This document shows positions 36,790 through 50,744 of a stretch of DNA of 64,000 nucleotides, piece after piece. The translations under genes and the position numbers were made by a program. The stretch is taken from assembly GCF_003932715.1 (NCBI RefSeq), contig NZ_CP020700.1:3184501-3248500 (forward strand). Reading direction: 5' to 3'. Each line of letters begins with the position of its first letter. The stretch's first letter is position 1. The notes under the pieces are model-generated. The model was not told the origin of the DNA and did not search any database. It worked only from the letters and a program-made list of their open reading frames with translations. This DNA is from Streptomyces tsukubensis (GTDB taxonomy: Bacteria; Actinomycetota; Actinomycetes; Streptomycetales; Streptomycetaceae).

Positions 36790-36848
36790 CCCCGTGCGCG
36801 GGCACCGGACCGCATCCGCATCGGGTTTCCCTCGGGCCGGAACGTGAC

Positions 36849-36881
36849 GGAGCCCGGGAGCATGTCCAGCTCCCGGGCTCC
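36849..36881. terminator. Perfect 13-bp hairpin, probably bidirectional
   Basis: GGAGCCCGGGAGC (36849-36861) pairs perfectly with 36869-36881 around a 7-base loop. It stands 60 bases after the plus-strand secreted protein gene and about 50 bases beyond the minus-strand tRNA-like units, so it could end both transcripts. Confidence 0.65.
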
Positions 36882-36933
36882 AGCTTGCCACCCATTTGCG
36901 CACACCGACGGCGTTTAAGAACCGCGGGTCATA

Positions 36934-37012
36934 TTGAGATCGACGTGTTCTGCCTTTGAACTACAGCGCCACGAGAGAGGCGCCGGGGGGACTTGAACCC
37001 CCATCCGTCGAT
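36934..37012 (-). tRNA. Second tRNA-like unit, circularly permuted
   Basis: On the minus strand the 3' half comes first: anticodon-stem strand CGACG (37010-37006), T arm GGGGG-TTCAAGT-CCCCC (37002-36986), acceptor strand CGGCGCC (36985-36979) and base 73 T. A 7-base spacer CTCTCGT follows, then the 5' half: acceptor strand GGCGCTG (36970-36964), TA, D arm GTTC-AAAGGCA-GAAC (36961-36947), A and CGTCG (36945-36941), ATCTCAA. Acceptor strands pair 7/7 with one G-U. The anticodon strands pair perfectly and the pairing extends to 7 bp. The loop suggests anticodon CUC (Glu), but this depends on the unknown joining point. No CCA is encoded, and the variable loop is only 3 bases. Confidence 0.7.
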
Positions 37013-37076
37013 GTTCGCCCACGTTCGGTCGATCCGGTGTTCGGCGGCGAATACTGAGACTGGAGCGAGAATCTGA

Positions 37077-37160
37077 GTTTGACGGGGCCGCCTCTGCCGG
37101 GCTTGGGCCACCCCCGCATGTGGTGCGGGGAGAGGGATTCGAACCCCCAACTGACACCCC
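37077..37160 (-). tRNA. First tRNA-like unit, circularly permuted, CCA encoded
   Basis: On the minus strand the order is again 3' half then 5' half. The 3' half has GGGGT (37160-37156), variable loop GTCAGTT, T arm GGGGG-TTCGAAT-CCCTC (37148-37132), acceptor TCCCCGC (37131-37125) and A-CCA (37124-37121). A 3-base spacer CAT follows. The 5' half has acceptor GCGGGGG (37117-37111), TG, a D arm with GCC/GGC stem and 13-base loop with GG, G, GCCCC (37088-37084) and GTCAAAC. The acceptor pairs 7/7 with one G-U; the anticodon stem pairs 5/5 with one G-U. The loop reads CAA (Leu) if joined there, although a Leu tRNA normally has a long variable arm. The unit lies 77 bases after the stop of the 243-aa gene on the same strand. 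Confidence 0.7.
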
Positions 37161-37236
37161 TTCTTCAGCTTCAACATCAGTTTCAGCTTGCGCTCATCGC
37201 GCACCCTCCGCTCGTAACGGAGGGCGTATACGGGGG

Positions 37237-37968
37237 CTACCGGAAGAGGTAGCCGAATACCGCGTCGCCGACCCGCTGGTCGGTGACCTCGGTGTTGTTC
37301 GCCTCCTCGCGGGCGAACTTGACGGACTGCTGGAGCTTCTCGACGCGGTCGAGGAGTTCGTTGACCCGCCGGGCGGGCAGCGCGCCGGAGAACTTCACCG
37401 TGGTCCAGTAGCCGACCGGGACGTCCTCGTAGTACACCTCGACCTGCGCCGGGTGCTTCTCCGTGGCCTCGGCCTTCACGTGGTTGCGCGGAACCTTCTT
37501 CGTGCGGATGGTCCGCACCGGGTCGGTCTTCCACGAGTCCGTCGAGGGGTCCAGGTTCCACGATTCGGAGGCGTCGAGCACCGGCAGCTTGCGCACGAAG
37601 GTGTGCAGATCGGTGAGCTGCTTCTCCAGGAACAGCAGGTACGGGACGGGCACCTGGGGCAGCAGCACCGTGCCGTCGACCACCACGTCCGCGGCTGCGG
37701 ACCGGTTCGCCCAGTCCTTCGTCGCGGTCACGTCGAAGAGGCGCGTCAGCGTCCCGGCGGTCGTCCGCAGAGCGTCCTCGGCCTTGATCTGCACCCGCGT
37801 GGACTCGGGCGGCAGCTGCTCGCCCTCTTCGTCCTTGGGCTGGTAGGTCCGGGAGATACCGGCCAGCAGGGCGGGCTTCTGCACGTCCTGGTGGGCCTGG
37901 GTGAGCTCTTGGAGAGCCTTGGACTTGACGCCCTTTTCGACTGCGATGATCTGATTCAGCTTCGGCAC
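37237..37968 (-). CDS. Conserved actinobacterial protein, function unassigned
   Basis: This 243-aa soluble protein has no signal or membrane segment. It has a strong alpha/beta look, with a Lys/Glu-rich N-terminal helix (IIAVEKGVKSKALQELTQAH), the block LLAGISRTYQPKDEEGEQLP, the central VVVDGTVLLPQVPVPYLLFLE and DLHTFVRKLPVL, and a C-terminal coiled segment. I have a sense of a widely conserved actinobacterial family but cannot name a function. GTG 37968 has no ribosome site; TAGGTT ending about 6 bases upstream could be a -10 element, so the mRNA may be leaderless. Its stop lies 77 bases before the two permuted tRNA-like units on the same strand, so it may be cotranscribed with and act on them. 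Confidence 0.75.
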   Translation of the reverse strand: MPKLNQIIAVEKGVKSKALQELTQAHQDVQKPALLAGISRTYQPKDEEGEQLPPESTRVQIKAEDALRTTAGTLTRLFDVTATKDWANRSAAADVVVDGTVLLPQVPVPYLLFLEKQLTDLHTFVRKLPVLDASESWNLDPSTDSWKTDPVRTIRTKKVPRNHVKAEATEKHPAQVEVYYEDVPVGYWTTVKFSGALPARRVNELLDRVEKLQQSVKFAREEANNTEVTDQRVGDAVFGYLFR

Positions 37969-49706: not shown

Positions 49707-50744
49707 ATGCGAATGCGTCAGCACGCAAAGTACAGCCGGGCAGATCGAACCAGGCCTGCGAACGAACTCCTCCGGCCAGGACTCCCTCACCCCAACGGCT
49801 GGTTCTGCGTCGGGTTCAGCCGGGAATGGCAGCCCGGTACGGTCCGCAGCCGGCCCTTCATGGACGGCGAGGTAGTGATCTACCGGACCCGCAGCGGACT
49901 CCTGCGGGCCACCCGCCCGTACTGCCCACACCTCGGGACGCACCTGGGCGTCGGCGGTACCGTCGACGGAGAGTATCTCGTCTGCCCGTTCCACAGCTTC
50001 GCCTTCTCTCCCGAGGGCCCCTGTGTCCGCACTCCCTACGGTCCACCGCCGAAGGCTTCACTCAGCCTGCTGCCCGTGCGAGAAGCGAACGGAATCGTGT
50101 GGGTCTGGAACTCCCACGACGACACGCCACCGGACTGGGAAGTGCCCGAGCTCACCACTGTCGGACGCGCACTCTCGTACCGGACGGCCGACTTGGCCGG
50201 CTACCCCCAGGACATTGCAGAGAACGCCGTGGACTTTGGACACCTCCCCGAAGTCCACGGCGTCAGCGTTCTCGAAACGCCCCCGAAACCCACAAGCGAC
50301 GGCCCCTACTACCACGTGGAAGGCTACGTCGGACGCCCCGTCCCCCTCCTGGGGACCATCGCCTCTCGAACCCGCCTCCACTTCGTCGGCCTGGGGGGCA
50401 CCCACCTCCTCTTCGAATTTCCGCAGGTCGGTGTGCGTGCCTCCGCATGGCTGCTGGTCACTCCGATCGGCCCGCTGCGCATCCGCTGGTGGACGGTGGT
50501 GAACGCCGCGCCGAACGATCCACCACGCGTGCTCATGCCACTGCATCGTCTCCTTGCGCGCCCCCTGGAGCAGGCACTCAGCCACGCCATCTGTCTATGG
50601 ACCCACAAGGACGTGGAGAGAGACCTCGTCATCTTCAACCACAGGCAGTATCTGCCGCACCCCAGGCTCAACAGCAAGGAAGGCCCTATCGGGTCGCTAC
50701 GGCAGTGGGCGCGACAGTTCTACCCTCCGACGCAACCCTCCTGA
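49707..50744 (+). CDS. Rieske non-haem iron oxygenase 2
   Basis: This 345-aa protein starts at ATG 49707 with GGAGAGGG 5 bases upstream. It has CPHLGTHL (Cys73, His75), CPFHSF (Cys93, His96) and ENAVDFGHLPEVHG (Asp176, His179, His184). The two oxygenases are paralogues with the same design, about 40-50% similar by eye, so the pathway likely has two successive oxidations. No ferredoxin or reductase gene is seen in the neighbourhood. It ends the terpene operon; the next gene is about 600 bases away with its own promoter. Confidence 0.85.
   Translation: MRMRQHAKYSRADRTRPANELLRPGLPHPNGWFCVGFSREWQPGTVRSRPFMDGEVVIYRTRSGLLRATRPYCPHLGTHLGVGGTVDGEYLVCPFHSFAFSPEGPCVRTPYGPPPKASLSLLPVREANGIVWVWNSHDDTPPDWEVPELTTVGRALSYRTADLAGYPQDIAENAVDFGHLPEVHGVSVLETPPKPTSDGPYYHVEGYVGRPVPLLGTIASRTRLHFVGLGGTHLLFEFPQVGVRASAWLLVTPIGPLRIRWWTVVNAAPNDPPRVLMPLHRLLARPLEQALSHAICLWTHKDVERDLVIFNHRQYLPHPRLNSKEGPIGSLRQWARQFYPPTQPS

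Follow-up and report, generated by a model that had tools for sequence, protein, structure and literature searches.

The DUF7873 gene (PF25283) of Streptomyces tsukubensis lies on the minus strand at 37237..37968 of the window, by which we mean the whole 64-kb (64,000-nucleotide) stretch of DNA analysed, and encodes a protein of 243 amino acids. It is located directly upstream of a predicted structured RNA of approximately 377 nt (36848..37224, minus strand), of which its product is the presumed protein partner. The RNA, whose ends are inferred, was mapped by hand from an RNAalifold consensus of 45 dereplicated loci from named genomes. The same strand carries a NADAR-domain gene near the element (36208-35507, Pfam E 3.6e-39) and a gene of the protein-arginine deiminase family (PAD; 34459-32516, Pfam E 2.9e-115). 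ARAGORN found no ordinary tRNA in the 64-kb window and no Rfam family reached its cut-off there.

Within this RNA we identified two tRNA-like modules, units A and B, in which the 3′ half precedes the 5′ half; all features described below are on the minus strand. Unit A (37084..37160), delineated by a descriptor and the consensus fold, runs from the 3′ strand of the anticodon stem (37160-37156) through the T arm (37148-37132) to the 3′ acceptor strand (37131-37125), which is joined by the loop ACCACAT to the 5′ acceptor strand (37117-37111), followed by the D arm (37108-37090) and the 5′ anticodon strand (37088-37084). Its stems comprise the anticodon stem GGGGT/GCCCC, the T arm GGGGG-TTCGAAT-CCCTC, the acceptor TCCCCGC/GCGGGGG (7/7 pairs) and a D stem of 3 bp. 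Unit B (36941..37010), delineated by the descriptor, has the same order: 3′ anticodon strand (37010-37006), T arm (37002-36986), 3′ acceptor strand (36985-36979), the loop TCTCTCGT, 5′ acceptor strand (36970-36964), D arm (36961-36947) and 5′ anticodon strand (36945-36941). Here the stems are CGACG/CGTCG (anticodon), GGGGG-TTCAAGT-CCCCC (T arm), CGGCGCC/GGCGCTG (acceptor, 7/7 pairs) and GTTC/GAAC (D stem, 4 bp), and the acceptor, T and D helices are 100 % paired in 30 sequences.

The permuted-tRNA descriptor, which combines permuted acceptor, T, D and anticodon stems, scored 23.70 for unit B and 22.70 for unit A, the two top places in the window, and none of 100 random 64-kb Markov sequences reached 22.7 (best 22.0). 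Under earlier descriptor limits, which barred the 13-nt D loop of unit A, this unit reached only 20.85, compared with a maximum of 20.55 among 20 random sequences. The third-best place in the window (50195-50290, minus strand) scored 21.85 and may have arisen by chance, since 2 of 100 random sequences scored as high. At a threshold of 21.5 at least one unit was present downstream of DUF7873 in 77 of 80 genome loci and 46 of 52 viral loci, while controls on 132 DUF7873 loci gave matches in 0/132 mononucleotide shuffles, 0/132 antisense strands and 2/132 upstream stretches. The original prediction of two tandem circularly permuted tRNA-like units, each with acceptor, D, anticodon and T stems, is thus confirmed, with conservation providing the decisive evidence.

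To search for the element in other genomes we used a covariance model (R1) of unit B and its stalk, based on a 30-row alignment chosen from loci already judged to be unit-B-positive. R1 matches positions 36901..37040 at 136.2 bits, this locus (L014) itself being one of its 30 rows. DUF7873 is present in 23 of 41 sampled genomes of the same genus, and the descriptor placed a unit B module after the gene in all 23 and a unit A module in 16. By eye, the stalk strands are retained in the seven loci in which unit A was not detected, where they enclose a short hairpin or a linker of reduced length. With R1, all 23 genomes that carry DUF7873 and none of the 18 that lack it gave matches above 60 bits, but these positives are not independent of the model because 16 of its 30 training rows come from the 41 genomes searched.

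A wider set of named genomes comprised 80 loci kept of 503 relatives, among the matches listed. These include members of Streptomyces, Kitasatospora, Actinacidiphila, Catenulispora, Nonomuraea, Planomonospora, Lentzea, Kutzneria, Actinoplanes, Actinoallomurus, Rhizocola and Ktedonospora, the last of which we take to belong to the Chloroflexi. Among the named loci listed, 78/80 contained unit B at 81.9 bits or more with R1, and 65/80 also contained a second match. L088 and L110, the two loci in which the RNA is missing, are on MAG contigs labelled as Chloroflexi and Proteobacteria respectively.

On viral contigs R1 identified at least one unit after DUF7873 in 50 of 52 assessable loci. Forty-nine of the 53 viral loci matched at 48 bits or more and L183 gave a weaker match with both units present; L169 and L170, which have identical downstream sequence, were without the RNA, and L191 ends within the gene, hence the 52 assessable loci. 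This set shares contigs with a set of 18 loci, so that the two are not independent. We found DUF7873 in 73 phage records, from phages of Vibrio (29), Gordonia (12), Rhizobium (12), Klebsiella (7), Serratia (6), Arthrobacter (3), Pseudanabaena (2), Rhodococcus (1) and Microcoleus (1). At least one permuted unit lay 3′ of the gene in 10 of the 11 records examined, from Gordonia, Arthrobacter, Rhodococcus, Pseudanabaena, Vibrio, Rhizobium and Klebsiella phages, with that in KpLz-2_45 identified with R1; the Microcoleus phage (L048) gave a weak descriptor match only. Eight of the 10 phages have no annotation in the stretch following DUF7873; in the other two, Ziko and Vibrio D505, a small hypothetical CDS overlaps with it. 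The linkage of the RNA to DUF7873 and its spread over actinobacteria and phages are shown computationally by these searches. In phages Racecar, Phendrix, NiceHouse and TM21B the DUF7873 gene is located within a tRNA array. The Gordonia phage Phendrix array also contains an Rfam tmRNA match of 89 bits (cut-off 47) at L044:4072-4600, where no feature is annotated.

The fold of the RNA is supported by covariation. The whole-element consensus was obtained from 45 of the 80 genome loci, L088, L110, L099 and L151 having been left out and the rest dereplicated via shared 8-mers, and consists of a hairpin at the 5′ end, the stalk and module of unit A, the outer, Y, X and anticodon stems and module of unit B, and a 3′ hairpin. 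Cell counts from these 45 loci represent raw pairing, and the shuffle comparison applies to the 30-row unit B alignment only. In that alignment 91.3 % of 1134 cells were paired versus 69.1 % in shuffles and 37-44 % when the structure was slid by 1-3 columns; double-change cells numbered 257 versus 76.7, and 0/500 shuffles reached either the pairing or the double-change value. Compensatory changes in homologous loci, named in the original prediction as a check, are strong: the stems are conserved and the permuted acceptor helix of unit B is paired in 210/210 cells with double changes at 7/7 pairs. The anticodon stem of unit B was paired in 54.8 % of cells in the R1 alignment, a low value which we ascribe to misaligned spacers because 4-5 of the 5 pairs form in each sequence. 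In the 45-locus fold the X, Y and outer stems enclose this stem, which is paired in 191/222 cells and shows double changes at 5/5 pairs. The modules themselves are almost completely paired in this fold, with acceptor 229/230, T 165/165 and D 132/132 cells for unit A and acceptor 313/315, T 225/225 and D 178/180 cells for unit B.

The flanks of both modules form stalks. For unit B the inner stalk (36902..37040) consists of stem Y (37040-37034/36908-36902) and stem X (37027-37019/36928-36919), which flank the conserved motifs AUCGACYG and CUUAAACG; in the 30-row alignment Y is paired in 98.9 % of cells and shows double changes at 6/6 pairs, and X is paired in 89.9 % of cells and shows them at 9/9 pairs. 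An outer stem closes the unit (36887..37048), pairing GCCGCC (37048-37043) with GGUGGC (36892-36887), with 258/262 cells paired and double changes at 4/6 pairs across the 45 loci. The unit A stalk (37053..37195) pairs GCUGA (37187-37183) with UCAGU (37057-37053) together with nearby CUGA/UCAG-type helices, the first helix being paired in 222/225 cells and the others in 233/270 and 162/180 by RNAalifold of the 45 loci. Covariation lends this stalk little support because it is nearly invariant, with one double-changed pair in all. A possible additional pairing of GAGCG (37195-37191) with CGCTC (37067-37063) was seen by eye. The flanks had originally been predicted to pair again beyond the anticodon stems, and both unit B pairings hold and covary; the pairing proposed for unit A (37184-37177/37076-37069) represents one register of several permitted by the CUGA/UCAG repeats, the consensus fold preferring GCUGA/UCAGU.

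The RNA is bounded by a hairpin at either end. The 5′ hairpin CCCTCCG/CGGAGGG (37204..37224) corresponds to a helix paired in 190/237 cells with double changes at 3/6 pairs. The 3′ hairpin (36848..36882) has 14 bp and a 7-nt loop, TGGACAT, and its 12-pair equivalent in the consensus fold is paired in 483/514 cells of the 45 loci with double changes at 10/12 pairs. Loops akin to TGGACAT (TGGATAT, CGGATAT and AGGATAC) cap 3′ hairpins elsewhere, ranging from Streptomyces to cyanophage Pam2, although the loop search missed many Streptomyces loci, in which by eye the stem is bulged.

The protein encoded upstream belongs to Pfam PF25283 (E=7.9e-121, 402.8 bits versus a gathering threshold of 27), a family of at least 7560 members at E ≤ 0.001. 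Its AF2 model (mean pLDDT 89.6, pTM 0.73) combines long helices with long beta strands and had no confident fold match in the structure libraries searched. The predicted pI is 6.5, near neutral. Residues invariant among 28 sequences include N88, K116, K158, H172-P173, Q175, R220 and N224. From its linkage to the RNA we hypothesise that DUF7873 is a candidate RNA-binding protein. We found no literature naming DUF7873 or describing this RNA in a search whose reach excluded most subscription journals. Among 14 control genomes Deinobacterium chartae was the only one positive for DUF7873 and also the only one positive for TROVE (Rsr/Ro60).

We consider it likely that the element is one structured RNA of approximately 380 nt with two stalked tRNA-mimic modules, which probably forms a ribonucleoprotein (RNP) with DUF7873. 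We infer that it is transcribed as one RNA, a non-coding species which may be the 3′ part of the DUF7873 transcript, and which would fold into the 5′ hairpin, the two stalked modules and the conserved 3′ hairpin. The chain would ascend the stalk into the anticodon stem, pass through the T arm, the loop-closed acceptor stem and the D arm, and return down the stalk. Since the tRNA-like fold is entered through the anticodon stem, the elbow and acceptor helix would be displayed without an anticodon loop and the RNA should not decode. The modules may thereby offer tRNA-binding proteins a tRNA elbow and an acceptor helix, with DUF7873 perhaps binding the stalk or core by analogy with the binding of Ro60 to Y RNA stems. 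They could serve to attract or tie up enzymes that handle tRNA (for example RNase P, TruB, Dus, PNPase or a tRNA-directed nuclease), and for tRNA-rich phages the simplest use would be the guarding or redirecting of tRNA metabolism during infection. The near-neutral pI of DUF7873, the lack of a confident fold match, the four loci without the RNA (L088, L110 and L169/L170) and the weak match in L048 are points against the proposed tRNA-mimic RNP.

A broader proposal, which we judge to be evenly balanced, is that these elements constitute an unrecognised Ro60-independent RNP class with two tRNA mimics per RNA, present in actinobacteria, at least one member of the Chloroflexi and unrelated phages, several of them tRNA-rich, and acting on tRNA metabolism, for example as a scaffold or decoy against tRNA-directed nucleases in infection. 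Bacterial Y RNAs that mimic tRNA have been described as tied to one protein family, Ro60/Rsr. If the proposal is correct, a second and apparently unrelated family would have its own double tRNA mimic, on host chromosomes and on phages of several host phyla, and scaffolding RNAs derived from permuted tRNA would have arisen or diversified repeatedly. The stretches that lack annotation in the tRNA arrays of some phages would likewise be accounted for, and DUF7873, with its thousands of members, would become a testable candidate for RNA binding.

The modules could instead belong to a permuted multi-piece RNA, from which RNase P and RNase Z excise the loop joining the acceptor strands and so free (CCA) ends for charging or binding. 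The acceptor, T and D arms are tRNA-perfect, two-piece tmRNA provides a precedent (PMC3985003), and 21 of 86 unit rows, for example those of the Rhizobium and Vibrio phages examined, have N-CCA at the start of the joining loop, a feature that would be needless in a pure mimic. CCA is, however, absent from the other 65 rows and shows no clean match to what the tRNA genes of the respective contig do, of which 1/8 (L035) and 2/12 (L037) encode it yet the units carry TCCA; the Rfam tmRNA_permuted model scores 13.6 bits against a cut-off of 47. We regard this reading as unlikely. The linkage to DUF7873 could alternatively mean that the RNA regulates the gene, and a cis-acting 3′ UTR structure which controls the DUF7873 mRNA or ends transcription, with no role in trans, would agree with its position directly after the stop codon and its strong terminal hairpin. 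We give this little weight, as a terminator or stability element would seem to need neither an RNA of this size nor its two intact tRNA elbows and its several covarying domains.

The order of 3′ half, spacer and 5′ half with all four stems would also be expected of true permuted tRNA genes, and the original prediction had envisaged a precursor that is cut within the anticodon loop and ligated there to yield functional tRNAs. RtcB, which it had suggested looking for, is indeed encoded in the genome, approximately 1.45 Mb away. A decoding tRNA requires U33, but the base at this position is T in only 15/50 unit B rows and 10/36 unit A rows (L042, L029 and L048 were left out of this set, and a spurious second L060 row was kept among the 50). 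We therefore see no sign of a cut-and-rejoined anticodon loop, since U33 is unconserved and the anticodon stem continues into covarying helices; in addition unit A is undetected in some relatives, the seven of 23 noted above. As described in PMC3978253 and PMC3218864, processing of permuted tRNAs in algae and archaea is BHB-dependent, the known cases using a BHB motif and the tRNA-splicing endonuclease (PMC3978253), and bacterial tRNA introns are group I/II; no group I/II intron family in Rfam matched. Splicing to functional tRNAs is in our judgement very improbable, and the flank pairings are better read as the stalk of a tRNA-mimic RNA than as a splicing substrate. A remnant of tandem ordinary tRNA genes, in which a 3′ half also precedes a 5′ half mid-pair, has a practically negligible probability. 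A tRNA-Asn pair in the same genome does score 48.1 bits with R1 and 40.7 with the Rfam YrlA model, but the units have no flanking halves, ARAGORN detects no tRNA, and the stalks, which have no counterpart in tRNA, show covariation and are conserved all the way from phages to a Chloroflexi genome.

Among known systems, the units resemble the circularly permuted tRNA genes of red algae and Thermofilum in that the 3′ half precedes the 5′ half with cloverleaf stems. They differ in having a stalk in place of a cut-and-rejoin junction and no anticodon loop with U33 after joining, and their sequence gives no sign of a decoding tRNA. In two-piece tmRNA, as described in PMC3985003, the gene is permuted, and RNase P and tRNase Z are the probable processing enzymes. 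The present element shares with it a tRNA-like domain with acceptor strands joined by a loop in the precursor; it differs in its lack of an Rfam match at cut-off and in having two tRNA-like modules, each with a D stem and a stem in the anticodon position.

In architecture the element resembles YrlA Y RNA (RF02553), in which, as described in PMC8394870, a basal stem holds Rsr/Ro60 and tRNA-like D, T and acceptor arms are modified by DusA and TruB, with PNPase tethered. This layout of stem and tRNA-like domain occurs two times over in the present element. The Rfam YrlA model aligns end to end with both units at 28.1 and 22.4 bits, below the cut-off of 69, and in 12 viral or phage loci the element had no gathering-level Rfam match. 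Such an alignment does not amount to membership, because the ordinary tandem tRNA-Asn pair of the same genome (L072:440-591) scores higher. Such a pair can give rise to spurious assignments to YrlA or to permuted tRNA. No TROVE match was found in the S. tsukubensis genome, nor in the other eight of the nine TROVE-negative genomes among the 23 with DUF7873, and we rejected membership of YrlA given the sub-cut-off score, this lack of TROVE and the tandem ordinary tRNAs that outscore the units. TROVE is not associated with DUF7873, because (partial) matches occur at similar frequencies in DUF7873-positive (14/23) and negative (11/18) genomes of the genus. In four of six comparison regions from the same genus (L068-L071) a TROVE match lies near two YrlA-like stretches, all under the Rfam cut-off and at a different locus; of the other two, L072 is the tRNA control and L073 had no RNA match. 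The element nevertheless shares with YrlA a tRNA-like module that is entered via its anticodon stem and comprises a D arm, a T arm and a closed acceptor arm, and a basal stem formed from paired flanks. It is distinguished from YrlA by its two modules, its different stalk motifs, its additional 5′ and 3′ hairpins and the presumed replacement of Ro60 by DUF7873.
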